Assembly (NCBI RefSeq): GCF_000378965.1
Contig: NZ_KB900536.1
Location: forward strand, 1,309,583-1,373,582
DNA length: 64,000 nucleotides
Source: Thioalkalivibrio thiocyanodenitrificans ARhD 1
GTDB lineage: Bacteria > Pseudomonadota > Gammaproteobacteria > Ectothiorhodospirales > Ectothiorhodospiraceae
Reading direction: 5' to 3'
Shown: one piece after another, positions 26,939-48,892 of the stretch
Layout: every line of letters begins with the position of its first letter
Position numbering within the stretch: the stretch's first letter is position 1
The notes under the pieces: model-generated
Databases searched by the model: none
The model's input: only the letters and a program-made list of their open reading frames with translations
What the model was told of the DNA's origin: nothing
Program-made: the position numbers and the translations under genes

Positions 26939-26979
26939 GGCAGGTTGTAACACCCCCGGTGGCTCAGAGATTGAGCCTG
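26939..26979 (-). promoter_or_regulatory. Conserved 41-bp element upstream of the HIRAN remnant
   Basis: Matches 47667-47707 at 40 of 41 positions, far better than the flanking coding sequence. It contains the perfect inverted repeat GGCTCA-GAGAT-TGAGCC and a GGTTGTA(A/C)CACCCCC tract. It lies about 90 bp upstream of the HIRAN start in both copies and could be an operator, a promoter or a recombination site. Confidence 0.6.
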
Positions 26980-29326: not shown

Positions 29327-32300
29327 GCTTCAATGAGGCCGTGGCGTTCTGCCACGGAACACACCAAGCCCAACTAATCCGGCACCCCTACGGACACGCT
29401 TCAATGAGGCCGTGGCGTTCTGCCACGGAACACCGGGCCGGTGGCCGGTGACCTGCATGGGGTCGACGCGGCTTCAATGAGGCCGTGGCGTTCTGCCACG
29501 GAACACTGTAAATCCTTGCTCCATCTCGGCTCTGACGATCATGCTTCAATGAGGCCGTGGCGTTCTGCCACGGAACACGGTGGAGGTGGCATTTATGGAA
29601 GTCTCCGGCCGCCGGGCTTCAATGAGGCCGTGGCGTTCTGCCACGGAACACGCTGCCGGACGCCGGCCCGCGGGATGCCCTTGCCCTCGCTTCAATGAGG
29701 CCGTGGCGTTCTGCCACGGAACACGCCTGCAGCTATCAGATCGCATCTGGCGCCTGGACCGGCTTCAATGAGGCCGTGGCGTTCTGCCACGGAACACCGG
29801 ACAGGCTTCCGCCTGGGTCGTTCAGCCGTGTCGGGCTTCAATGAGGCCGTGGCGTTCTGCCACGGAACACCCGGAAGCCTGGCCCGCGCCATCAAGGGCT
29901 TCTGCCACGCTTCAATGAGGCCGTGGCGTTCTGCCACGGAACACAAACTCGCCCAGTACGGGCTGCATGTGACACAGCCGGCTTCAATGAGGCCGTGGCG
30001 TTCTGCCACGGAACACTGGGCTGGGGGCACGAAGATAAATATTTCAGCCGGCCCGGCTTCAATGAGGCCGTGGCGTTCTGCCACGGAACACAAATCGTGT
30101 TCACTGACTGGACCCGGAACTACATCTTGCTTCAATGAGGCCGTGGCGTTCTGCCACGGAACACCTGCTGTCCCGGTATTCCACCGACAAGACCATCGCG
30201 CTTCAATGAGGCCGTGGCGTTCTGCCACGGAACACGATGACTTACTACAACCCCACGGCCGAGGATCTCGCGCTTCAATGAGGCCGTGGCGTTCTGCCAC
30301 GGAACACGTTCAAGTCACTCAACCACATGCACGTGGACTTCTTTGCTTCAATGAGGCCGTGGCGTTCTGCCACGGAACACGACGTTGGTGTTCGCATCGT
30401 CGGGCTCCTCCACCGCGACGCTTCAATGAGGCCGTGGCGTTCTGCCACGGAACACCGGGCGCTTGCAGTGGGGGCATTTCGGTGGCCCGGAGGCTTCAAT
30501 GAGGCCGTGGCGTTCTGCCACGGAACACACCACCAGATCCCGACGCGACGTAGTTGCTGTGCGTGGCTTCAATGAGGCCGTGGCGTTCTGCCACGGAACA
30601 CCTTGGGCTTGGGCCTCTGATCTGCTTCTACGCCACGGCTTCAATGAGGCCGTGGCGTTCTGCCACGGAAGACCCCGCCGGAGGAACCGATGCCGAAGCC
30701 TGATGATCCGCTTCAATGAGGCCGTGGCGTTCTGCCACGGAAGACACGTTTCGCCTGATTAAAGCACCGGTCTGGCGCCGCGTGCTTCAATGAGGCCGTG
30801 GCGTTCTGCCACGGAAGACCACCCCGCACCATGCGGGCATGAGCCGATTCCGCCCCGCTTCAATGAGGCCGTGGCGTTCTGCCACGGAAGACGAGCCGGT
30901 AGACCGGCCGTGGGTCCGCGGCCCGCAGCTTCAATGAGGCCGTGGCGTTCTGCCACGGAAGACGTCATCCTCCCGCTGCGCCTCTGCTATCCGTGTTACG
31001 CTTCAATGAGGCCGTGGCGTTCTGCCACGGAAGACGCTACCACGACGCCGAATCCGCCCGCGCCCACTCCCTGCTTCAATGAGGCCGTGGCGTTCTGCCA
31101 CGGAAGACGTCGTCCAGGTAGGGCAGCACCGCGCGCCGGTTGTAGAGCTTCAATGAGGCCGTGGCGTTCTGCCACGGAAGACGGGGATGCGCACCGTGCG
31201 CCGGGCCGGCGCGGCCGTGCTTCAATGAGGCCGTGGCGTTCTGCCACGGAAGACACCACGCAGCCACCTCAATGGCGTCCACGTCGCCGCTTCAATGAGG
31301 CCGTGGCGTTCTGCCACGGAAGACGCCGTAGCCGTCTGCGCAGTTGCCGTGATAGATGCGCTTCAATGAGGCCGTGGCGTTCTGCCACGGAAGACCCAGA
31401 CCCACCGGGGCATGGGCGCCAGCCTGCCGGCGCTTCAATGAGGCCGTGGCGTTCTGCCACGGAAGACGAAGCAACGAGAGCCAGGAGGACCAAGGCATGA
31501 ACGGCTTCAATGAGGCCGTGGCGTTCTGCCACGGAAGACGTGGAGTGGACGGAATACGGCCTCGAGGCCGTGCGGCTTCAATGAGGCCGTGGCGTTCTGC
31601 CACGGAAGACGCGCTGTCGGTGCGCAGGATGAGGCCGATGTCGTCGCTTCAATGAGGCCGTGGCGTTCTGCCACGGAAGACGTGGAGATCCGGTAGATGA
31701 ATGCCTTGACCAGCAGGCTTCAATGAGGCCGTGGCGTTCTGCCACGGAAGACGCGGGTCGAGTGGGTTTTTCATCCTTTGACGGTCTGGCTTCAATGAGG
31801 CCGTGGCGTTCTGCCACGGAAGACGGTACGTCATCGTGGGGATTTGGTTGTTGTTGAGCGCGCTTCAATGAGGCCGTGGCGTTCTGCCACGGAAGACATG
31901 GTATCCGGCTGACGCCCGACAACGCGGTTGATCTCGCTTCAATGAGGCCGTGGCGTTCTGCCACGGAAGACAAGGGCGGCGCGCGCGCTGGAGTAGTTGG
32001 TCTTGGAGCTTCAATGAGGCCGTGGCGTTCTGCCACGGAAGACCACACCGCGGACTCCATCCGCGAGGGTCTGCGCGCGCTTCAATGAGGCCGTGGCGTT
32101 CTGCCACGGAAGACTCCGCGGTCGATGGGCTGGATCTGTCGGGGGGCACGGTGCTTCAATGAGGCCGTGGCGTTCTGCCACGGAAGACAGCATGATCCGG
32201 GGTCTTTCAATTGGCTAAGATCGGAACGCTTCAATGAGGCCGTGGCGTTCTGCCACGGAAGACTATTCGGGCGGACTGATCCGTCGTCGCCAACGGAAGG

Positions 32301-35300
32301 CTTCAATGAGGCCGTGGCGTTCTGCCACGGAAGACGCGAGGTGGTCCAGAGGCCGGTGACCGTCTGGAGCGGGCTTCAATGAGGCCGTGGCGTTCTGCCA
32401 CGGAAGACGATGCCCTGCTCAGTCACATAGTCGCCACCGCCGGCGGCTTCAATGAGGCCGTGGCGTTCTGCCACGGAAGACGAGTAAGCAAGCCGCCTAC
32501 CGCGCCACAGACGGCACGCTTCAATGAGGCCGTGGCGTTCTGCCACGGAAGACCTCGAAGCGCTGGCCGGTTTCCGGGTCCATCACTTCGCTTCAATGAG
32601 GCCGTGGCGTTCTGCCACGGAAGACGTGTCAAGATGCGTGCGTGCCGCATTCAGTCGCCCATAAGCTTCAATGAGGCCGTGGCGTTCTGCCACGGAAGAC
32701 CTGATGGCTTCGGCAAGCTGTTCGCGAAACTCGTCGTTGCTTCAATGAGGCCGTGGCGTTCTGCCACGGAAGACCACTGCCATTACTGCGATTCCCCGCA
32801 CTTGGCCGGCGCTTCAATGAGGCCGTGGCGTTCTGCCACGGAAGACGTAGGCCCCCCCGACCCACGTCGTCGTCGGCATGGCCAGGCTTCAATGAGGCCG
32901 TGGCGTTCTGCCACGGAAGACGTCTCGACCGGAGAGGAGTCGATCACCTGCTACATGCTTCAATGAGGCCGTGGCGTTCTGCCACGGAAGACAGCGCACC
33001 CGCACGGGCCTGGGGGCTGCCCCGGAAGGCTTCAATGAGGCCGTGGCGTTCTGCCACGGAAGACGGAGGGTGACGTAAGTCATTGAAAAATGGCGCGCCC
33101 GGCTTCAATGAGGCCGTGGCGTTCTGCCACGGAAGACGCCGTGGTGTTCCGCGCCCGCTTCTCCATCCCCAGTGCTTCAATGAGGCCGTGGCGTTCTGCC
33201 ACGGAAGACCAGACGCTCGGAACGGAATGGGGCAGGGACCTCGTGCTTCAATGAGGCCGTGGCGTTCTGCCACGGAAGACACGCAGCGCGTACTATCATA
33301 TGACCACGGTCGGGGAGCTTCAATGAGGCCGTGGCGTTCTGCCACGGAAGACCCGCGGCTGTCGGCGTGATGCTGATCATCGAGGGGATCAAGCTTCAAT
33401 GAGGCCGTGGCGTTCTGCCACGGAAGACCGCGCTCGTCGGTGGGTACCAGGAGAGCTGCGTAAAGCTTCAATGAGGCCGTGGCGTTCTGCCACGGAAGAC
33501 CGCGCTCGTCGGTGGGTACCAGGAGAGCTGCGTAAAGCTTCAATGAGGCCGTGGCGTTCTGCCACGGAAGACGTCAGCGCCCGGGGCCTGGACAAGATAC
33601 TCCAGACCCTGCTTCAATGAGGCCGTGGCGTTCTGCCACGGAAGACGCGTGTCCCAGGGTTTCATCGGGTGTTTCCTCCTACGTGCTTCAATGAGGCCGT
33701 GGCGTTCTGCCACGGAAGACAATAATCATCAGAACCACCTCCCAATAGCAACCAGCCGCTTCAATGAGGCCGTGGCGTTCTGCCACGGAAGACCCGCCTG
33801 TGGCCTCGGGGAATGCCTCTGCCTCGTAGAGCTTCAATGAGGCCGTGGCGTTCTGCCACGGAAGACGCACCGACACATCACGCCGGTTTCCGGGTCGGTC
33901 CAGGCTTCAATGAGGCCGTGGCGTTCTGCCACGGAAGACGCCACGGACGGCGCCAGACAGGAGGATACAGATATGGCTTCAATGAGGCCGTGGTGTTCTG
34001 CCACGGAAGACCCGATGAAGTCGTGGCGCGAGCTGAACTGTTCCATGTGCTTCAATGAGGCCGTGGCGTTCTGCCACGGAAGACTCGGTTGTCAGCGCCG
34101 ACCATGTGGGTGCAGTCGAACGCTTCAATGAGGCCGTGGCGTTCTGCCACGGAAGACAGGTGCTGAACGGCGCGGGGCTGGTACGGGCGGGGGCTGCTTC
34201 AATGAGGCCGTGGCGTTCTGCCACGGAAGACGGCGCCCAACGGGGAGTCCGACAACTCTGTGCGCGTGCTTCAATGAGGCCGTGGCGTTCTGCCACGGAA
34301 GACAAGTCGGCCAGACGCCGAGCGATCTCGTGGCGATCACGGCTTCAATGAGGCCGTGGCGTTCTGCCACGGAAGACCCTATATCCTTGCTGCCGACTAT
34401 GTCGCCGACCCCGCTTCAATGAGGCCGTGGCGTTCTGCCACGGAAGACTCTCTGGTGGACGCAGGCTGGCGAGCGCCACAACACGCTTCAATGAGGCCGT
34501 GGCGTTCTGCCACGGAAGACGCGGACTCCGTCGGACTGGTTGGGCAGCTCAACGTCGCTTCAATGAGGCCGTGGCGTTCTGCCACGGAAGACACCGATCG
34601 TGGACGGAGATTGATCTGGAGCATGCCGCGCTTCAATGAGGCCGTGGCGTTCTGCCACGGAAGACCATGAACCCCAGCGATTGGGGTGAGATCGAGCGGC
34701 TGCTTCAATGAGGCCGTGGCGTTCTGCCACGGAAGACACAGACCACCCAACAGGGCACCACCGATCCCGCCCAGCTTCAATGAGGCCGTGGCGTTCTGCC
34801 ACGGAAGACGGTATCTCAAGGATCGAGGTTTTGACGACAAGGAAGTGCTTCAATGAGGCCGTGGCGTTCTGCCACGGAAGACCCAGAGGCTTGGCGGGTC
34901 CCCTTTCTCCAGGGGGCAAGCTTCAATGAGGCCGTGGCGTTCTGCCACGGAAGACGAGACAATCGGGGATGTCACTGGTTCCGCATATCACGCTTCAATG
35001 AGGCCGTGGCGTTCTGCCACGGAAGACGTTTCAGATCGACCTCGATCCCGATGGCGAGAAAGGCTTCAATGAGGCCGTGGCGTTCTGCCACGGAAGACGA
35101 CGGCGCCGGACGATTACGAGCATATCTGGGGCGGGCTTCAATGAGGCCGTGGCGTTCTGCCACGGAAGACCCTCGCTGTACCACTTGACCACGCCGTCGG
35201 GGCCGAAGCTTCAATGAGGCCGTGGCGTTCTGCCACGGAAGACCCTTGTGATCTGCGATGCGCGCCTTGACCGCGGCCTCGCTTCAATGAGGCCGTGGCG

Positions 35301-35827
35301 TTCTGCCACGGAAGACACCGACAGTCGCGCCCCTTTTCCCGCCGATCATGCCACGCTTCAATGAGGCCGTGGCGTTCTGCCACGGAAGACGCCGCGTTCG
35401 ATCACGAGATCAGCGGTCGGGCGCCGACGCTTCAATGAGGCCGTGGCGTTCTGCCACGGAAGACCTCGCAGTGCGCGCGCTCGTATTCGAGTTCCGGGGT
35501 GCTTCAATGAGGCCGTGGCGTTCTGCCACGGAAGACCGCGGATCTCGCCTGGCGGGACTGGCCGCGGGACAGGGCTTCAATGAGGCCGTGGCGTTCTGCC
35601 ACGGAAGACGACCTGATTCGGCGGCGCATCAATGCGGCCAGGGAGGCGCTTCAATGAGGCCGTGGCGTTCTGCCACGGAAGACTCATTAACATTTTCCAA
35701 TAATCAAGAAGTTGCCGTAGCTTCAATGAGGCCGTGGCGTTCTGCCACGGAAGACGACACGAGAGCAGGCGCAGCGGCAGGCGGATGTGCTGCTTCAATG
35801 AGGCCGTGGCGTTCTGCCACGGAAGAC
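29327..35827 (-). CRISPR. Type I-G CRISPR array, 90 repeats and 89 spacers
   Basis: 36-bp repeats, spacers of 34-39 bp, period 71-75. On the transcribed (minus) strand the repeat starts GTCTTCCGTGGC, contains the perfect stem CCGTGGC-AGAAC-GCCACGG and ends CCTCATTGAAGC, giving an ATTGAAGC handle. Repeats 1-18 from the left (29327-30601) end GGAACAC on the plus strand; repeats 19-90 end GGAAGAC. One repeat (33976-34011) has C to T at 33994. One 36-bp spacer is duplicated in tandem (33429-33464, 33501-33536). The cas2-proximal end (35827) is leader-proximal, so the left end is oldest. I counted the repeats by hand from their start positions. Confidence 0.98.
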
Positions 35828-36059: not shown

Positions 36060-36350
36060 CTAGATGATGACAGGCTCTCTGGGAACCGGTGCGAAATCCT
36101 TTCCCAGGCTGACCACTCGGGGCGCAACCTTGTCCGCCAACCCCACGTCAAGGATCACGATGTGATCCTGCTCATGGTGGATGATTCCGTCCAGAAGAGC
36201 GATCAGTTCTGCATGGCGCTGCCGGCTCATGCGGCACTGGAAGACCGATAGCTGAACCCATTCACCGTAACCGCGCATCAAACGGAACACCCGGCGCCAA
36301 CGCTTCTGGTCGCTGATGTCGTAGGTGACGATATAGAGGTGTTCGTCCAT
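36060..36350 (-). CDS. cas2: CRISPR-associated endoribonuclease/integration factor Cas2
   Basis: 96-aa ferredoxin-fold protein that forms the core of the Cas1-Cas2 spacer integrase. It starts MDEHLYIVTYDISDQKRWRR, with the conserved YDI Asp, then VFRLMRGYGEWVQLSVFQCR. The start at 36350 has GGTGA 6 nt upstream; a GTG at 36359 overlapping the cas4/1 stop is the alternative. It is the last gene before the leader and is coupled to cas4/1. Confidence 0.95.
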   Translation of the reverse strand: MDEHLYIVTYDISDQKRWRRVFRLMRGYGEWVQLSVFQCRMSRQRHAELIALLDGIIHHEQDHIVILDVGLADKVAPRVVSLGKDFAPVPREPVII

Positions 36351-36355
36351 GGACG

Positions 36356-38068
36356 TCACCGGGTCGTGAAGTTCGGGTAGTCCGGCAGCTCGCCGAGAAG
36401 GTAGCGGGCGAGCAACCTCCCTTGCACTTCCAGAAGACGGCGATAACTGACACGGTACCCGAACAACGGGTGCGTGATCTCGTGGCTCATGCGCCGCTCG
36501 AAGGTTGCAATGAAACGCTTGCGTCCATCGTTGGTGAGGGAGACGCTGCCAGCGACGCTCTGGAAATCCGATGGGCGCACTTCACCGTTGTTGATCGCCT
36601 GAATGACACAGGAGTCCGCGATCAAGGGCCTGAACGGTTCCATCATGTCCAGTGCCAGGGCAGGACGCCCATAACGCGGCTGGTGATAGAAGCCGCGATA
36701 CGGATCGAGGCCTACAGCGGAAAGCGACGCCGTCCAGGCGCGTGTCAACAGGGCATAAGCATAGGACAGCAGCGCATTGACCGGATCCGTGGGCGGGCGC
36801 CGGTTGCGTGTGGTGAAATCGAAGGACAACCCGGGGTCCGCGTCGTTGGGCTTCAGGAGTTGAGAGAAGGCCCCGAAATATCGCGATGCTGCCGCCCCCT
36901 CGATACCAAGCAACTCGGAAATGCCGGATACACGACGCGCCTTGCGAAGATCCACCTGAAGTCCGTCCATCAGATCCACGGGCTTCTCCTCCCCCTTCCA
37001 GTTGCGGCGCAGCAACGTTCGGCAGTTCTGAATCTTTGCCTCCACCAGCCCCTTGGCGATGTGCAGGCACTGGTGTTCCTCGAAACTTGCCTTGTACTGG
37101 GCGGAGCGGATCTCCACATTCTTGTGGCCGGTGCCCACCGTATGCCCCATGAACCAACCGCCGTAGGAATGCCAACTGACGGGAATCTCCCGCTGCATCA
37201 ATTCCTGAAGGCACGGGGTAGTGATGTACACGTTGCCCATGACAATGACCTGGGATACGTCGAGCAACCGCACCGACTGCACCTTCTCGTCGTCCACCGT
37301 GACTTCCAGTGTCTCGCCCCGTTTGGCCAGCTTGGCCCCACGGGCCTGGATGTAAAGCGGCAGGGCCTCGTCCCTGGCCACGGCCAGGGGGCGGGGCGGT
37401 GTCTGCTCGTGGCGAATATAGTTGACCTCGTCGGGCAGACAGATGCCCACCAACGAGCAGCGCGGGCATTTCGGGCTGTCCTCCAGGGGGGTCGGGATCT
37501 GTCCGCCCGCGGCGACGAAGCGCAGACCGTTGATGGCGTTGAGCGTCAGCCCGCGCAACTCCTCGTCGAAGGGCACACGCACACGCTCACGGGATTCGGC
37601 AAAGTACAACTCACCTTCCTCGCAGGTGTAACCATGCTCCTCCAGGATCATGCCCTGCACGCAGAGTTGCACGCGTTCCGGCTCGTAGGCCCCCTTGGCC
37701 ACATGAGGACGCTTGCCCCGCTTGTAATCCACCGGCGTGACGCGGTCGCCTTCGCCTTCCAACAGATCCATCCGGGCGATCAGGCCCAGACGGTTGGACG
37801 ACAACGTGATTGAACGGGCGTGGTAGCGCTCACCCTCCTCCGCCACGGCAGCCGGAGGAAGGTCCCCGGCACGCTTGTCCACCCTGCGGTGCCGATAGCG
37901 CCCCTCCACGGTATCGGCCGACTCGGACCACTCCCCCTGCACCCATTCCAGATACGCCAGACGCGGACAGTACTGGTATTCATTGACCATGCGCGCCGGC
38001 AGCATGGGCATGTCCCCCGACAACTCCGGGAACGGAAGCGGCAGATCGGGCTGCTGCTGATCCTCCAT
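36356..38068 (-). CDS. cas4-cas1: Cas4-Cas1 fusion (spacer acquisition)
   Basis: 570-aa fusion characteristic of type I-G/I-U. The Cas4 half (about 1-215) has YCPRLAYLEW, the RecB-nuclease motif TPVDYKRGKRP and the Fe-S cysteines of CPRCSLVGIC. The Cas1 half (about 230-570) has the catalytic glutamate in LLGIEGAAASRYF and the metal-binding block GFYHQPRYGRPALALDMMEP. Cas4 trims prespacers and sets the PAM end; Cas1 integrates them. The start at 38068 (MEDQQQ) has GGAGG 9 nt upstream; Met codons at 38098/38095 have none. Divergent from an RHH/MazF pair over 79 bp, so it needs its own promoter. Confidence 0.95.
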   Translation of the reverse strand: MEDQQQPDLPLPFPELSGDMPMLPARMVNEYQYCPRLAYLEWVQGEWSESADTVEGRYRHRRVDKRAGDLPPAAVAEEGERYHARSITLSSNRLGLIARMDLLEGEGDRVTPVDYKRGKRPHVAKGAYEPERVQLCVQGMILEEHGYTCEEGELYFAESRERVRVPFDEELRGLTLNAINGLRFVAAGGQIPTPLEDSPKCPRCSLVGICLPDEVNYIRHEQTPPRPLAVARDEALPLYIQARGAKLAKRGETLEVTVDDEKVQSVRLLDVSQVIVMGNVYITTPCLQELMQREIPVSWHSYGGWFMGHTVGTGHKNVEIRSAQYKASFEEHQCLHIAKGLVEAKIQNCRTLLRRNWKGEEKPVDLMDGLQVDLRKARRVSGISELLGIEGAAASRYFGAFSQLLKPNDADPGLSFDFTTRNRRPPTDPVNALLSYAYALLTRAWTASLSAVGLDPYRGFYHQPRYGRPALALDMMEPFRPLIADSCVIQAINNGEVRPSDFQSVAGSVSLTNDGRKRFIATFERRMSHEITHPLFGYRVSYRRLLEVQGRLLARYLLGELPDYPNFTTR

Positions 38069-38111
38069 AGCGGCTGGCCTCCCAGTTGCGAGCATCACAA
38101 GAACAAACTAC

Positions 38112-38147: not shown

Positions 38148-38465
38148 ATGCCTGCAATCAGTCTCCGCCTCCCGGAAGAGATCGAGGCACGCCTCGCCGA
38201 GGAGGCCCGTATCGAAGGTCGGCCCCGCTCCGAAGTGGTGCGCGAGGCGATCGCCGAGTACATCACCCGCCGGGAACGGGAGCGGTTCATGGCGGACATG
38301 GTGGCCGCTGCCAATGCCCTCGCCGGAGATCCCGATGCCCTCGAAGAAATGCGAACCCTGGCGGAGGACTCCATCGAAGCAAGCAACGAGGCGCTGGACA
38401 TCGCCGAGGAACGCAAGCCCGGCGAACCCTGGCCCGAGGAAACCGGCGATAAGTGGTGGCGCTGA
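38148..38465 (+). CDS. RHH-type antitoxin (CopG/Arc fold)
   Basis: 105-aa antitoxin. The N-terminal RHH domain (MPAISLRLPEEIEARLAEEA, then GRPRSEVVREAIAEYITRRE) should bind DNA. The acidic C-terminal part (about 60-105) would wrap and inhibit the toxin. The stop overlaps the toxin start (TGATG). The pair is oriented against the flanking cas genes. Confidence 0.88.
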   Translation: MPAISLRLPEEIEARLAEEARIEGRPRSEVVREAIAEYITRRERERFMADMVAAANALAGDPDALEEMRTLAEDSIEASNEALDIAEERKPGEPWPEETGDKWWR

Positions 38466-38806
38466 TGCGCCGCGGCGAGGTCTGGATCGCCAACCTCAAC
38501 CCCAACAAGGGGGCAGAGATCGGCAAGGCCCGCCCCGTGATCATCCTGCAGGACAATGCGCTCCTCGACAGCCGGTTGCGCACCGTCGTGATCGTTCCGC
38601 TGACCACCCAGTTCCGTCCGGCATCGGCCCCCATACGCATCGCAATCAACGCCCGCGACCGCCTGCGCAAGGACTGCTATGCCATGACCGAACATCCGAG
38701 GACCATCGACCGCAGCCGCTTCAGTGAAGGGCCCTTGACCACACTCACAGCGGATGAGTTGGCCGGCGTCGAAAAGAGCCTCAAGGCGGTTATGGGGATG
38801 TGGTAG
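38465..38806 (+). CDS. MazF/PemK-family endoribonuclease toxin
   Basis: 113-aa toxin with the MazF start MRRGEVWIANLNPNKGAEIG, KARPVIILQD and the later VVIVPLTTQF. MazF toxins cut mRNA at short motifs and stop growth when the antitoxin is lost. The start at 38465 overlaps the antitoxin stop. The stop (38806) abuts the stop of a helix-hairpin-helix remnant on the other strand. Confidence 0.92.
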   Translation: MRRGEVWIANLNPNKGAEIGKARPVIILQDNALLDSRLRTVVIVPLTTQFRPASAPIRIAINARDRLRKDCYAMTEHPRTIDRSRFSEGPLTTLTADELAGVEKSLKAVMGMW

Positions 38807-39033: not shown

Positions 39034-40539
39034 TCATACAGCGCGATCCGTCACGGTGGAACAAGGCACGAAAACGCCCAGCCCGAAGTGGCAGGCGAAG
39101 CCGAGGGCCAGCGGGCCTTGCACCGGTTCTGGAAACGTCAGGCGCCAGAAGCTGCCGAGGCGATCGGGTTGCGTGAGCCCACGGCGGCTGCGGAAGCGCC
39201 GGAAATGTATGGGGCGACGTTTCCGGTTCTTTCCCACCCCAACCTCGTTAAACGGTTCCAGAATTATCGGCTCGGGCAAGTCGCGTTCGCGGCATTCGCG
39301 TTTGATCTGCGCCGGGATATCCAAACGCTTCTTTACATGCCAGGGATGGAGATACGGTGTGATGGATTCCCAAACCTCGCTGGGTTGTGTCAGGACGCTC
39401 GCGATTTCAGGGCGACCGATGCTTTCAATCACGAGGCGCCACTCGCCGCCGTCGCGGCTCCAGAGTTTTCTGACGCCTTCGACGATCCGCTGCGCTTCAG
39501 GCCGCATGCCGTCGGGAACATGCAGCAGTACGCGATCGATGTGGCCGTCGCGGTTGCTGTCCCAGGGAAGGTAAAACGCATGGCGATGGCGATTGCCTTC
39601 GGGCATGTCGTGACCGGAGAAAATGGCGGGCACCTTGTCTTCACCGCATGCGCGCTTGGCCTGACTCATGACGGCCATGCGCATCAGTTCGCCGATGCGT
39701 AACGCGTCCTCCACTTTAGGCAGGGGCTTGCCAACCAAGATGAAGCTTGCGCTGGTGGCGTCGGGAACCTCGATATGGGGCGTGGCGTAACGTGGCCGCA
39801 GCGCATCGATGGGGCGCAGGTAGCTCGTTTTACGCGCTGCGGGCGGCTGGTTCCAGCCCTGCTTGCGCAGGTCGGCCGTGTCCAGGCTGAGCGCGTCAAG
39901 CAATTTGTCAGGAAGCGTCCCGGCCAGCTTCTTCGCCGACCTTTTGTCGGCAAGAAACCCCTGGCGCTGCGACTGGTATTCGGCCGGCGGCAAGGGGGCA
40001 TAGAGGGTGACCATCTCGCCCTTGAGTTCGCCGGTCTCGGTATCCAGCTCCGGTGTGCCCGGTGTGCAGTTAATCACCGGCGCTTCGGTGAGGCGCTTGG
40101 CCTCCACCCAGGACTCGGCACGCCCGAGGTAGCCCATGACGGACAATAGCTCATCGAGTAGCTCACGCTGGTCGTCGGGTAGTTCGACATTCGGCCAAAC
40201 CACGGTCAGCGGCTCATCGCGGTTGACGGCCGTGAAGGCATCGAAGACCAGCGACGTCTTACCGGCGGCAAACTGCGGCATGTAATGGCGGGTATGGCTG
40301 TGGCTTGCCGCGGGCAGGGCGTATTCCGGCAATTCCTGCGCCAGCGATTCAATCAGGCCCAGCAGCGTGGATTCGCCATGCTTTCCGCTGTGCTTGACCT
40401 TGTGATGCCAAGTGGCGATCAGCCCGCGCAGGATGCGCCACGGTTCCGGCGGCCAAGCCACGGCGCCTTCGTTGACATGCCGGTCCCAGGGCGTGGCGTG
40501 GTAGCGCCCGGCGGGAAAGGTGAAGGATAGTGCAAGCAT
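39034..40539 (-). CDS. csb2: Type I-G Cascade subunit Csb2 (GSU0054; Cas5-Cas6 fusion)
   Basis: 501-aa RAMP-type protein diagnostic of type I-G/I-U. The N-terminal Cas5-like part starts MLALSFTFPAGRYHATPWDR with VAWPPEPWRILRGLIATW. The C-terminal part ends with the RAMP-like GPLALGFACHFGLGVFVP. In this subtype Csb2 supplies the 5'-handle-binding Cas5 role and the pre-crRNA-cleaving Cas6 role. The start is the first ATG, 36 bp after csb1. Confidence 0.93.
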   Translation of the reverse strand: MLALSFTFPAGRYHATPWDRHVNEGAVAWPPEPWRILRGLIATWHHKVKHSGKHGESTLLGLIESLAQELPEYALPAASHSHTRHYMPQFAAGKTSLVFDAFTAVNRDEPLTVVWPNVELPDDQRELLDELLSVMGYLGRAESWVEAKRLTEAPVINCTPGTPELDTETGELKGEMVTLYAPLPPAEYQSQRQGFLADKRSAKKLAGTLPDKLLDALSLDTADLRKQGWNQPPAARKTSYLRPIDALRPRYATPHIEVPDATSASFILVGKPLPKVEDALRIGELMRMAVMSQAKRACGEDKVPAIFSGHDMPEGNRHRHAFYLPWDSNRDGHIDRVLLHVPDGMRPEAQRIVEGVRKLWSRDGGEWRLVIESIGRPEIASVLTQPSEVWESITPYLHPWHVKKRLDIPAQIKRECRERDLPEPIILEPFNEVGVGKNRKRRPIHFRRFRSRRGLTQPDRLGSFWRLTFPEPVQGPLALGFACHFGLGVFVPCSTVTDRAV

Positions 40540-40575: not shown

Positions 40576-44096
<3,521 letters not shown>

Positions 44097-44104
<8 letters not shown>

Positions 44105-44603
44105 CGGGGTTCTCCTGCAGCCACTGGAGGTGCTGGATGTCGTCAAGGTCGCGAGGGCGGCCGGCCGCCTGTTTCATGCGGATAAGTGTGGGGATGGACA
44201 CGAATCGAACATTGATGCCCGGCAGCAGTTCGCCTCGCATGGCGATGTCATACTCATGTGCGAAGTCGAACGGTTCGTACACGAACACGTCCACCGAAGT
44301 ACCGGGGAAGGCATCGCTCTGGAAATTTAGCACTTGCATGCCTTTGTCTTCTCGCCAGCGTTGGCGTTGCTCGGGCTGCGCGAAGGCCTCCGCATCGATC
44401 GGTACGGTCGGTCGATAGCCGGTCCCGGCCAGGGCGTTGAAAGCCTGGCGGATATTGCCGGCATCAAGCGCGATCACCAGGTCGATATCCATGGTGAGGC
44501 GGATGTAACCGTGCGCGTTGACGGCGAGTCCGCCGGCCACGAGGTAGCGTACTCGCGCGGCATCCAACGCCTTGGCGACCGCATCGAAGGCGGCAAGCTT
44601 CAT
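44097..44603 (-). CDS. Nucleotidyltransferase embedded in the cas operon
   Basis: 168-aa protein of the polymerase-beta-like nucleotidyltransferase fold (DUF6036/AbiEii-like). It shows YLVAGGLAVNAHGYIRLTMD with GG at 24-25 and the DxD metal pair MDIDLVIALD (D39, D41). A likely third acid is in TSVDVFVYEPFDF (about D105). All three residues needed for NMP transfer appear present. The start at 44603 overlaps the cas3 stop (ATGA) and the end overlaps csx17, so the gene is locked between two core cas genes. No HEPN partner gene is adjacent. It is not a known type I-G component; the role is unknown. Confidence 0.85.
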
Positions 44604-46972
44604 GGTTTCTGCTCCTCGGCCGAGGCGCGCCAGTCGGCCAGCCGCACCAAAGTTTCCAGCCAAGCCAGCCGGAAGGGGCCGTGGTGGTCCAACAGTTTCA
44701 GGGTGCGCTCGGTCCACGATGGTCCCTGTTCGCCCTCGCCGATCTCCATCAACGTCAGTTTGAGCGTGGTCTCGCGGCTGTGCTCGCCGTCGAAATCGAG
44801 TGCGGGTAGGGTATCGCCTTCCCAGACACCGCGGGCGAAGCGCTTGACGCCATCGGCCGCTTCCTCTGTGGGCATGGCACGCAGGCTCATGCGTACCTTG
44901 CCGTGGTGAGCAGCGATCAGATAGGCGACGAGGTCGGCACGCTCATCGCCGTCCTGTTGATCGAGCCAGGCGAGCATGGAGGCTAGCTCGTGACGAAAGT
45001 ACGGACGTTTATGGCGCATCGGTCCTGGACAGTCAGATTTAGCCAGCAGTTCATCGTCGATGGTTCCCTTGCAGCGATACATAGACTTTTGGAATATCGC
45101 GTGTGCCTTACCCAAATCGTGCCAACGACCGGCTATGACGACCACTTCTGTGTGCGCCGTCTCGTTCACCTTCGCGCACAGTTCGGCGGCATGCCGAGCG
45201 ACATGACCGAGGTGCTCGGGTAGCGCTACGGGCTTGGGTTGTTGCGAGCGCCAATCCTCGCTCATGGCGTCGTGTGGCGAGCGTGTTTCAACCGATATTA
45301 CAGGGACTGGCGGCTTCTTGAGCGCGCCGTCGAAGCCGATCGCCTCGTCGTAACCCCCGTCGGCGGCGCGGAGCAACAACACCATGCCGGGGCGCGGATC
45401 GCGGGCCAGCTTGGTCCAGTGCTCGTCGAGCGCGTCCCAGCGCCAAAGCATGGTGTCCTTGCGTTTAGTGAACTCCATCGCCTGTCCAATAGATACCGGG
45501 CACAGCTCTCGGCGATCCGCCCTTCCCTGGATGTCCGGGGTATTGGGATCGTCTTTGAAGTCGCGCCAGAACACTTGCACGCCGGGCGTACCGGTGTCGC
45601 GGATGTAGTCGGACACGTCCACGTCGAAACCGGACAGGTCGGGGTCGGTATTGAATAGATCCAGCAGATCCTTACGACGCGGCACAGAGGTCAGTGGACG
45701 GGTTTCCTCAACGGCCGGCAAGTCCTGCGGACTGGCGCTGGCCAAACCATTCAATTTGCCACGTGCAGTCGCCAGTGCCTCATGTGTGTAGGGCAGTACA
45801 TCGGCCTCATCCTCGATATCCAGCCACAGGATGCGTGCACCGTCCTGATTGTTCTCGCCATAACGATTGCAGCGTCCGAAGCGTTGCACCATGGAAGCCC
45901 AGGGCGCCAGTTCTGTCACCAGGGTCTTCGAAGAAATGTCCACGCCGGCTTCGATGGCCTGGGTGGCAACGATAATGCGGTCGGCGCCATTCTCATCGTG
46001 CAGACGACGCGCCTGCTCAGTGCGCTCAGCGGCACGGAAACGGGCATGGATCAGCAGATCAGCCTTGTCCGGACGGCTGTCGCACAACAACCGGAATAGT
46101 TGCTGCGCCCGTTCGACACGATTCAGGATGACCAGCGTCTGCGCCCTTGTGTCGTGGGCTTCCAGCACCAGATTGCAGAGATTTTCAAGATAGGTTTGCA
46201 GCCCCGCCTTGTTGCCGGCATCTTTCGACAGCGAAACCGGTGCTTTAGCAATCGATTTCACCGCGCGCAGCCGGTCACCAGCCTGCCTCCGGTCTTCATT
46301 ACCGATCGCGCGCGTGGTGAGCGAATCCATGTGGCGATGAAGGTCCACCGTGTCCAGCCAGTCGCGATTCAGAGTAGCGGATACCCAGAGCGTGCGACTG
46401 TTCTTGGCGAGCGGGAAATCACGGCGAAATGCTTCCAGTTGTGCCGACGTGGCCAGCCCCGCACCCATCAACTGCACTTCGTCGAACACCCAGCATGCAT
46501 CGTTGTGCAGCAGCGCGAAGTGGATCGGCCATTGATAGCGGCTCATGCCGTAGCCTCGCATCAGGGCGCGCGAAAGCAGCATGTCCTGTGTGCCGACGAG
46601 AATGGCGTCATCTTCGGGATAGCTTGTCCATTCTGCCTTGCGGATATCCTCTTCGCCTCCCATCAGGACGTTGACGCTGACCTTGCCTTCACCCGGCCTG
46701 CCGGAGAGATCGAGCGCCTTCAGCCAGCCTTCGATATTGGCGACCGTCTGCTCTACCAGCACGCGCATCGGCAGGCACCAGATCAGGCGGCGGGGAGTTG
46801 CCTCGTCACGCAGTTCGCGGCGTTTATAAAGCCAGGCCAGCGTGACGGCGGCGGTCTTGCCCAACCCGGTGGGCACATTGAGGGTGTCGGGCCACGAGGC
46901 CTCGGCGAGCCTGGCCTGATATGGGAAGGGCTCGAAGCCGGCTGCCTTGCTGAAAAATTCACTGTAATCCAT
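44600..46972 (-). CDS. cas3: Cas3 helicase-nuclease (type I-G architecture)
   Basis: 790-aa protein with the helicase first and the HD nuclease last, as usual in type I-G. Helicase motifs: Walker A NVPTGLGKTA (about 32-41), the DEAH-box variant DEVQLMG (about 162), SATLNRDW, and motif VI VQRFGRCNRYGE. The HD domain carries RHAAELC, GRWHDLGKAHAIFQ (about 616-629), RHELASMLAW and AAHHGKVR. It unwinds and degrades DNA marked by the effector. The start at 46972 (MDYSEFFSKAAGF) has AGGA 7 nt upstream; the open frame beyond it runs through a repeat-like leader. First gene of the cas operon. Confidence 0.95.
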   Translation of the reverse strand: MDYSEFFSKAAGFEPFPYQARLAEASWPDTLNVPTGLGKTAAVTLAWLYKRRELRDEATPRRLIWCLPMRVLVEQTVANIEGWLKALDLSGRPGEGKVSVNVLMGGEEDIRKAEWTSYPEDDAILVGTQDMLLSRALMRGYGMSRYQWPIHFALLHNDACWVFDEVQLMGAGLATSAQLEAFRRDFPLAKNSRTLWVSATLNRDWLDTVDLHRHMDSLTTRAIGNEDRRQAGDRLRAVKSIAKAPVSLSKDAGNKAGLQTYLENLCNLVLEAHDTRAQTLVILNRVERAQQLFRLLCDSRPDKADLLIHARFRAAERTEQARRLHDENGADRIIVATQAIEAGVDISSKTLVTELAPWASMVQRFGRCNRYGENNQDGARILWLDIEDEADVLPYTHEALATARGKLNGLASASPQDLPAVEETRPLTSVPRRKDLLDLFNTDPDLSGFDVDVSDYIRDTGTPGVQVFWRDFKDDPNTPDIQGRADRRELCPVSIGQAMEFTKRKDTMLWRWDALDEHWTKLARDPRPGMVLLLRAADGGYDEAIGFDGALKKPPVPVISVETRSPHDAMSEDWRSQQPKPVALPEHLGHVARHAAELCAKVNETAHTEVVVIAGRWHDLGKAHAIFQKSMYRCKGTIDDELLAKSDCPGPMRHKRPYFRHELASMLAWLDQQDGDERADLVAYLIAAHHGKVRMSLRAMPTEEAADGVKRFARGVWEGDTLPALDFDGEHSRETTLKLTLMEIGEGEQGPSWTERTLKLLDHHGPFRLAWLETLVRLADWRASAEEQKP

Positions 46973-46984
46973 GGCCGAGTCCTG

Positions 46985-47066
46985 ATTGCAATGAGGCCGG
47001 GGATAGATCCCGGACAAAATACAACTATTTCAATGAATTAATAAACGACTCACATGCTTCAATGGG
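46985..47066 (-). promoter_or_regulatory. Degenerate CRISPR-repeat-like unit upstream of cas3
   Basis: On the minus strand, CCATTGAAGC (47057-47066) matches the 3' end of the array repeat. After about 40 nt comes GTC, a CCGGG-7 nt-CCCGG stem and CGGCCTCATTG (46990-47016), which matches the repeat in its first three bases, its stem position and 11 consecutive 3' bases. The layout is partial repeat - pseudo-spacer - degenerate repeat. A possible promoter lies in the pseudo-spacer (TTATTA at 47040-47045, 17 bp, TATTTT at 47017-47022). The cas3 ribosome site follows 5 bp later. It may encode a crRNA-like regulatory RNA or a Cas6-cleavable leader. Confidence 0.6.
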
Positions 47067-47154
47067 GACTCGCCAACGTCTCGGGCCCAGCCAGATCATG
47101 TGAAGCAGTTGCGTTCCCGAGGACTTTGCCCACGCCATCGGGCGCGGGACTGAT

Positions 47155-47568
47155 TCACGGACTCACCTCCAGATACACGTCCAACCCCACACGCTCCCAC
47201 GGCCAAGGCCCTTCACCCAGATGCGCGATGCGCCCCGTGAGCCGCTCTCCCCGATCCATCATCTGACTGACCGCCGCGTTCTCCCGGCGCGGCAGATAGC
47301 CGAGCTTCTCTCCCCGCCAGTCCACCCGTACGGCACTCGGGTCGAAGCGATTGCCGGGCTCGCGCACGAGCTTGACGGGCTGGCCCGGGCGCAGTCGCGG
47401 CCACAGGCGTTCGCCTTCGTGGAACTGGAACCCGGCGAGCGGGGAGCGCTGAACGAGGATTTCCCAGGGTGCGGCCTTGCCGATCACCGGGACGCCCGCT
47501 CCCGCAAGACCCAGCAGGGCCTTGAGGAAGCATCGGCGCGACGCCACGGTTGTCGGTTCAGATGTCAC
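47155..47568 (-). CDS. HIRAN-domain protein with Tat-type signal
   Basis: 137-aa protein. The N-terminus has a twin-arginine motif SRRCFLKALLGLAGAG, predicting folded export or membrane anchoring. A HIRAN domain follows (PGQPVKLVREPGNRFDPSAV, then EKLGYLPRRENAAV). HIRAN is otherwise known mainly in DNA-repair helicases and binds 3' DNA ends; an exported version is unusual. The GTG start has GGGAGG 6 nt upstream. A decayed copy of its 5' half lies 20.7 kb away at 26681-26850. It sits between cas3 and a WYL regulator. Confidence 0.78.
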   Translation of the reverse strand: MTSEPTTVASRRCFLKALLGLAGAGVPVIGKAAPWEILVQRSPLAGFQFHEGERLWPRLRPGQPVKLVREPGNRFDPSAVRVDWRGEKLGYLPRRENAAVSQMMDRGERLTGRIAHLGEGPWPWERVGLDVYLEVSP

Positions 47569-47666
47569 GTGTTCCCTCCCTGGGTCAGGTGTTGTTGAAG
47601 CGGCGCCCACGGGGCGCCCTATGGGGGTGTGGGGCAACGGCCTGCCGGGCTCTCTCCCGTTGTCTC

Positions 47667-47707
47667 GGCAGGTTGTACCACCCCCGGTGGCTCAGAGATT
47701 GAGCCTG
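47667..47707 (-). promoter_or_regulatory. Conserved 41-bp element upstream of the HIRAN gene
   Basis: Differs from 26939-26979 at one position. It contains the inverted repeat GGCTCA-GAGAT-TGAGCC and lies between the HIRAN gene and the WYL regulator gene, about 100 bp before the HIRAN start. It may be the promoter/operator of this gene, possibly bound by the neighbouring WYL protein, or a recombination site. Confidence 0.6.
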
Positions 47708-47744
47708 TGCCCCGTCGGGCCCCTTGCATCGCGGCGGGGGCGCC

Positions 47745-48716
47745 TCATGGCGCGTTTCCGTAACGCATGACGGCCTGGCGCAGGCGCCCCGCCACTTCGG
47801 CACGCAATGACTCGGGGGCCACCACCTCCACCTCGGGTCCGTACTTGAGGATGTCCATCATCAGTTCCCTGGGGTCGGAGTACGGCACCTGGAGTTCGTA
47901 GGTCTCGCCGTCCCAGCGGCCGATCTGGTCGGGGTGCCAGGTCTCGTCGGCCACCCAGCGGGCCCGCTCGGGGGTGAAGCGCAGCACGGCCCAGTGGCGG
48001 GCGCTGCCCGTGAAGATACCGAAGCTGGCGCCCAGGTAGCGGTCCAGTTCGGCGGGATCGATGTGGCGCAGCGTGCCCTGCCCCGGCGTGGCCTCTCGGA
48101 TGCGGTCCAGGGAGAAGGTGCGCAGCGCCCCGGCCTGCCCGCACCAGGCGATCAGGTACCAGTTGTCCCGGTAGTGCAGCAGGCGGTAGGGGTGAACGGC
48201 TCTTCGGGTGGGCTCGTCACGTTCCCGGCCGTGGTAATGGATGCCGAGCGGCAGGCCCTCCAGGACGGCCGCCGACACCTGGCCGAACAGCCGGTCATCC
48301 ACCCGGCGGGGTGCCATGGGCTGGAGACGGACCCGCTGGCTGACGGTCTCGGCCGGGTGGCCGCCCTCCTCCAGCAGCTTGCGGATACGCGCCTTGAGGG
48401 GTCCGAGGCTGGGGCCCAGCAGGCCCGGCTGGACGGCCTCCAGCAACTGTTCGGAGGCCAGCAGGGCATACAGCTCGGAGGCATTGAACCACAGGCCCGG
48501 GAGCTCGAATTCGGGGGCGTCGGGATCGTATCGGTAGCCGTTGAGGTCGCGGTCGTAGGGCAGCGGCGCACCCATGAAGTCGCGCATGTAGGCGATGTCG
48601 CGGATCACGGTGGCCCGGGATGCGCCCAGGTCCTCCATCAGGCCCGCCAGCGGCACGGGCCTTCGGCTACCCTTGAGCAGTCCGTGAATCCGGTAGATGC
48701 GCTCCGCGCGGTTCAT
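47745..48716 (-). CDS. WYL-domain transcriptional regulator
   Basis: 323-aa regulator. An N-terminal winged helix (MNRAERIYRIHGLLKGSRRP, helix DLGASRATVIRDIAYMRD) is followed by a WYL domain (AVHPYRLLHYRDNWYLIAWC) and a WCX-type C-terminal dimer domain. WYL proteins sense nucleic-acid-like ligands and often sit beside CRISPR and other defence genes. This one is two genes upstream of cas3 on the same strand and is a candidate island regulator. Confidence 0.9.
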   Translation of the reverse strand: MNRAERIYRIHGLLKGSRRPVPLAGLMEDLGASRATVIRDIAYMRDFMGAPLPYDRDLNGYRYDPDAPEFELPGLWFNASELYALLASEQLLEAVQPGLLGPSLGPLKARIRKLLEEGGHPAETVSQRVRLQPMAPRRVDDRLFGQVSAAVLEGLPLGIHYHGRERDEPTRRAVHPYRLLHYRDNWYLIAWCGQAGALRTFSLDRIREATPGQGTLRHIDPAELDRYLGASFGIFTGSARHWAVLRFTPERARWVADETWHPDQIGRWDGETYELQVPYSDPRELMMDILKYGPEVEVVAPESLRAEVAGRLRQAVMRYGNAP

Positions 48717-48892
48717 GCGTCCTGCCTCCCCATCGACCACCTTTCTGCAGGGCGGTCGTGACCACAATGACTGTGAGGATAACACCGGGATTGGGGAAGG
48801 GCATCCCCGGGGATCGGTGCACCGGGGGAAGAACGAAGGCCGGGTGAAGAAAGTGGCCGGATTGAACCCCGGGCGCGGGGCGCGACCCTGAC

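Follow-up and report, generated by a model that had tools for sequence, protein, structure and literature searches.

A crRNA-like unit upstream of cas3 in a type I-G CRISPR-Cas locus, probably an orphaned or decaying member of a CreR-like family

Does a type I-G cas operon carry, in front of its first gene, a guide that acts on the operon itself? To our knowledge, type I-G is the least understood of the type I subtypes, and nothing on its regulation was found in the literature searched. The question is raised by a 64,000-nucleotide stretch of Thioalkalivibrio thiocyanodenitrificans ARhD 1 (here called the window), which holds on its minus strand a complete type I-G CRISPR-Cas locus, comprising cas3g, cas8g/csx17, csb1, csb2, a cas4-cas1 fusion, cas2 and an array, as assigned with NCBIfam (Table 1). 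The array repeat is GTCTTCCGTGGCAGAACGCCACGGCCTCATTGAAGC, and the spacers are 34-40 nt long. The most likely start of cas3 is the ATG at 46972. Searches for cas3 gave no match in viral contigs or phage records and one distant match in plasmid records. An initial annotation had noticed repeat-like bases outside the array, directly before cas3, and proposed a crRNA-like mini-array that could steer the effector to a cas promoter. RNAs of this kind, known as CreR, let Cascade or Cas12a repress cas promoters and are reported for types I-B, I-E and V-A (PMC12737573, PMC13131331).

Table 1 Features of the window discussed in the text
Feature	Coordinates	Strand	Basis or remark
WYL-domain regulator gene	47745..48785	-	PF13280, PF25583
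Palindrome GGCTCA-N5-TGAGCC adjoining ACCGGGGGTGGTACA (minus strand)	47689..47705	.	Recurs upstream of cas3 in several relatives
HIRAN-domain gene	47155..47637	-	PF08797, E 2.5e-17; separates the unit from any promoter further upstream
psiR1 core CCCCATTGAAGC	47056..47067	-	Final 8 nt (47063-47056) are the crRNA 5′ handle; the L029 unit has the same 12-mer
Pseudo-spacer, 35 nt, ATGTGAGTCGTTTATTAATTCATTGAAATAGTTGT	47021..47055	-	Array register
psiR2, 36-nt repeat-like unit: 5-bp stem (47013-47009 / 47001-46997), then CCTCATTGCAAT	46985..47020	-	Folding, repeat comparison
AGGA, likely ribosome-binding site of cas3	46980..46983	-	
cas3 (type I-G Cas3g)	44600..46972	-	NCBIfam TIGR02621, E 3e-249
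cas8g (csx17)	41621..44146	-	TIGR04113
cas7g (csb1)	40576..41661	-	TIGR02570
csb2 (Cas5-Cas6 fusion)	39034..40539	-	TIGR02165; expected processing enzyme
cas4-cas1 fusion (38098-36356) and cas2 (36359-36060)	36060..38098	-	NF049935, TIGR01573
Main CRISPR array	29327..35827	-	90 repeat copies read on the minus strand

Anatomy of the unit before cas3

Read on the minus strand, positions 47067-47056 are CCCC-ATTGAAGC, followed after 40 nt by GTCCGGGATCTATCCCCGGCCTCATTGCAAT (47015-46985), just before cas3. ATTGAAGC is exactly the 8-nt 5′ handle expected for a type I-G crRNA, and within the second piece the 11 bases CGGCCTCATTG (46999-46989) are those of the array repeat. The repeat-like bases are thus as first described, with the 11 repeat bases, the handle and a hairpin all present on the minus strand. 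The intervening gap of about 40 nt had been read as spacer-sized. The core-to-core distance of 71 nt does equal the array period, giving a repeat-spacer-repeat layout beside the cas genes, but the repeat register divides the unit into an AT-rich pseudo-spacer of 35 nt and a second repeat of 36 nt, so that the spacer is not 40 nt long. The two repeat-like parts are called psiR1 and psiR2 below.

On folding, the stem of psiR2 (CCGGG/CCCGG) is correctly placed and 5 bp long, against 7-8 bp, and psiR1 has no stem adjoining CCCCATTG. Because Csb2 cuts 4 nt 3′ of the hairpin, yielding an 8-nt handle (PMC9638904), the CCTC|ATTG of psiR2 is the expected cut site, after 46993. A search of 46900-47800 against Rfam returned no match. 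Between 47076 and 46976 on the minus strand, CGAGTCCCCATTG and CAATCAGGACTCG could pair at 11/13 positions, and the resulting fold would place the psiR1 side on the ribosome site of cas3.

Could a promoter rich in A and T together with a hairpin resemble a repeat pair by accident? The AT-rich pseudo-spacer would suit such an origin, and GC-rich genomes do yield short repeat-like pieces at random; this 3.75-Mb genome has 90 copies of the 11-mer in the array, one in the unit and two elsewhere. A first-order Markov model of the 182-nt intergenic stretch was used to simulate 200,000 sequences. Of these, 759 contained the 8-mer and 25 the 11-mer, but the 8-mer together with CCTCATTG at the array period appeared in none (0/200,000). 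A pattern search for the handle, 46-62 nt and CGGCCTCATTGC across 350 genomes of the class gave four matches, namely the window, the related loci L029 and L034, and the end of one ordinary array, against zero for the reversed pattern used as control; the non-array matches were cas-leader units only. Chance resemblance can hardly be entertained on these figures.

Guide and target in related type I-G loci

The upstream regions of cas3 were gathered from type I-G loci that protein searches had located, some of the collected stretches being short (about 110 nt in L041, for example), and 31 loci made up the tree set. Four loci, the window, L022, L029 and L034, carry the unit upstream of cas3, a crRNA-like layout outside the array and beside the cas genes. 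L022 comes from the same taxonomic family as the window (cas3 57% identical), and L029 and L034 from other families of the class; these three have complete type I-G genes and arrays of their own. The core-to-core distance is 71 nt in the window, 72 in L022, 69 in L029 and 73 in L034, and the psiR2 core begins 24 nt (window), 28 nt (L022) or 25 nt (L029) before the cas3 ATG. A short ORF separates the unit from cas3 in L034; by eye, this reverse-strand ORF resembles the 5′ end of csb1/cas7 from another type I-G lineage. The CCTCATTGC form of psiR2 is common to the window, L029 and L034 and differs from the window array. The unit recurs upstream of cas3 in three relatives, but is absent from most of the collected cas3 upstream regions, including that of the nearest relative, L001. 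The four carriers fall in separate parts of the cas3 tree rather than in a single clade, which forces at least two gains or losses.

Comparison of the pseudo-spacers with cas and promoter sequences was informative in the relatives. The first 15 pseudo-spacer nucleotides of L022, L029 and L034 match one upstream site on the same strand, directly after TTT and 81, 69 and 82 nt, respectively, before the spacer start. All three share one pattern, with five matches, a mismatch, five matches, a mismatch and three matches, the mismatches being at positions 6 and 12. At these two positions, type I effectors flip the base out. A mismatch at both is not significant on its own, being expected in about 18% by chance with three cases only; the significant part of the match is the 13/13 identity outside positions 6 and 12, found in all three loci. 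Among 20,000 shuffled upstream regions per locus (60,000 in total) none reached 13, and the best score among the 139 ordinary array spacers of the same loci was 11. When each unit was scanned at every offset, a match of at least 11 was seen solely at the offset directly after the 8-nt handle. For type I-G interference the reported PAM is TTN, as cited in PMC9638904. In each locus the match decays after about 15 nt, so the guide did not arise by simple duplication and is not an ordinary acquired spacer.

In L022, L029 and L034, an AT-rich, promoter-like region precedes psiR1, the pseudo-spacer and psiR2, which are all on the sense strand and are followed by the first cas gene; from its place we infer that the target site is the cas promoter region. 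A consensus promoter scan of the relatives' sense strand found no strong promoter, the hexamers being weak; in L029 and L034, pairs resembling -35/-10 elements lie over the target or after it. An internal CATTGAA lies about 20 nt after the handle in the pseudo-spacers of the window (47035-47027) and L034; considered as a second handle, it was rejected, with no target after it.

These matches also bear on whether the unit might be a remnant from the end of a defunct CRISPR array that never had a regulatory role. Final repeats can resemble psiR2, and one ordinary array ends in CCTCATTGCAC, yet four loci share the position and strand before cas3 and three of them have promoter matches. We consider this origin very unlikely.

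The window copy and its upstream region

Handle, period, distance to cas3 and psiR2 motif are all preserved in the window copy, but it lacks the first hairpin and a target. At no offset of the unit was there a window target scoring at least 12/13 beside TTN. The best TTN-linked score in the 400 nt upstream was 5/13, no better than shuffles, and genome matches allowing two mismatches numbered 17 (the unit itself included) against 20 in the reversed control, which is background. Neither the window nor the genome thus offers a 15-nt target for this guide. A phage origin of the pseudo-spacer was also rejected: 38 IMG/VR contigs fit a relaxed 15-nt pattern, about the number estimated for chance, and none has an exact 20-mer.

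The element probably belongs to a type I-G family of cas-leader mini-CRISPRs acting in the manner of CreR, of which the window copy would be an orphaned or decaying member. The role assigned to the window copy rests on its sequence kinship with the units of L022, L029 and L034, and decay or orphaning is the most likely account of its present state. An exact handle and 11-mer would be unexpected in an element long dead, and Csb2 may still cut its psiR2.

The intact handle and psiR2 core could alternatively belong to a working CreR whose target falls outside the 15-nt rule, through a shorter seed, a PAM other than TTN or another promoter. A candidate would be the 6-nt seed match (ATC|ATGTGA) found about 40 nt upstream of psiR1 on the other strand, but its PAM is not TTN, the match extends over 6 nt only, and it lies on the wrong strand compared with the three relatives. 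With upstream scores at shuffle level and genome matches not above the reversed control, a working guide in the window appears unlikely.

The initial annotation had also suggested a Cas6-type cleavage site in the cas mRNA leader for autoregulation. On this reading, Csb2 would bind or cut the psiR2 hairpin and so control cas3 translation or the stability of the mRNA, with no guide involved. The stem and the CCTCATTG cut-site motif, 24 nt before the ATG, would fit this, as would the CGAGTCC on the psiR1 side, which can pair with GGACTCG over the cas3 ribosome site. The window stem is just 5 bp, however, and the three relatives hold a guide and a matched target that pure cleavage would not need. 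As a complete explanation this is quite unlikely; as a component it is possible, and it is compatible with a CreR role, because guide release requires Csb2 cuts.

How a CreR-like unit might have lost its target is suggested by the region upstream. A palindrome, GGCTCA-N5-TGAGCC, sits between the WYL and HIRAN genes, and the palindrome with the adjoining promoter-like bases is probably the operator and promoter of the HIRAN-cas operon, because the same palindrome also stands directly before cas3 in L023, L024, L009 and L040, among others. On the simplest account, the old cas promoter was exchanged and the CreR target went with it, and the unit stayed behind in the window: a WYL-controlled promoter and the HIRAN gene would have come in upstream, leaving the CreR orphaned or decaying. 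The palindrome, often followed by ACCGGGGGTGGTA, occurs upstream of cas3 or linked genes in type I-G loci (window 47689-47705 and 26961-26977; L002 3290, L009 4278, L016 1842, L023 1437, L024 3978, L028 1379 and L040 643), and is likely the operator of neighbouring WYL regulators. By eye, a HIRAN-like coding sequence also precedes cas3 in L032 and L039.

Proposed mechanism and relation to known systems

The unit follows its target on the sense strand and is near the start codon, which probably places it within the cas mRNA leader. Csb2 would then cut the leader RNA at both repeats, freeing the guide and leaving a shortened cas3 mRNA, and the freed guide would load into Cas7/Csb2/Cas8g. The guide-loaded complex would bind the promoter, where a short match would allow repression without cutting by Cas3. 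Plentiful free effector would lower cas expression, and occupation of the effector by crRNAs or anti-CRISPRs would raise it. That type I-G has a leader-encoded CreR, cut by Csb2 from the very cas transcript that it represses, at one guide per mRNA, with some lineages switched to WYL control and their CreR decaying, is a model to which we give even chances. The proposal that a mini-array guides the effector to the cas promoter is strongly supported for the family by L022, L029 and L034; the window copy itself lacks the target and the first hairpin.

The type II-A long-form tracrRNA described by Workman et al. in 2021 reportedly autoregulates in a similar way, a partly matching guide letting the effector repress the promoter of its own cas genes. 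The autorepression by partial match would be the same, but that system uses Cas9 and a tracrRNA and has no repeat-flanked spacer. Shmakov et al. (2023) are said to have surveyed crRNA-like elements and mini-arrays, including stand-alone repeats with guides for cas promoters, and the likeness to the present units lies in those two properties. We found no report of CreR in type I-G in the literature searched, which did not include the Shmakov et al. 2023 survey, and the statement is one of not found rather than absent. The units of L022, L029 and L034 resemble known CreR in being mini-CRISPRs near cas genes with partial complementarity between guide and promoter, a native PAM and degenerate repeats. 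They differ in position: each sits in the sense leader, past its own target and immediately ahead of the first cas gene, and thus may be cut from the cas transcript; the window copy differs further in its lack of a target.

From the three natural guide-target pairs, in which a TTT PAM adjoins 15-nt matches broken only at positions 6 and 12, one can predict the PAM, the seed register and the six-base kink of the type I-G R-loop; the pairs are also ready-made tests of autorepression. A lineage whose guide outlived its target would show how such regulators get replaced.

CreA of the type I-B CreTA system (PMC9458426) shares the psiR1-psiS-psiR2 anatomy and a partial promoter match beside a PAM. 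In CreTA repeats psiR1 degenerates more than psiR2 (PMC9458426), and by folding the same trend holds for the type I-G units. Unlike CreA, these units would target the cas promoter region and involve no toxin. The idea that the unit guards a toxin fails in the window, where a CreTA-type toxin target was sought for the guide and rejected: no match was found anywhere in the window, a CopG/PemK pair included. This pair, a CopG-like antitoxin and a PemK/MazF-like toxin (38148-38806, plus strand), is inserted between csb2 and cas4-cas1 on the opposite strand. An AbiEii-like nucleotidyltransferase gene (44097-44717) overlaps the cas3-cas8 junction, and is also there in L001, L002, L005 and L025.
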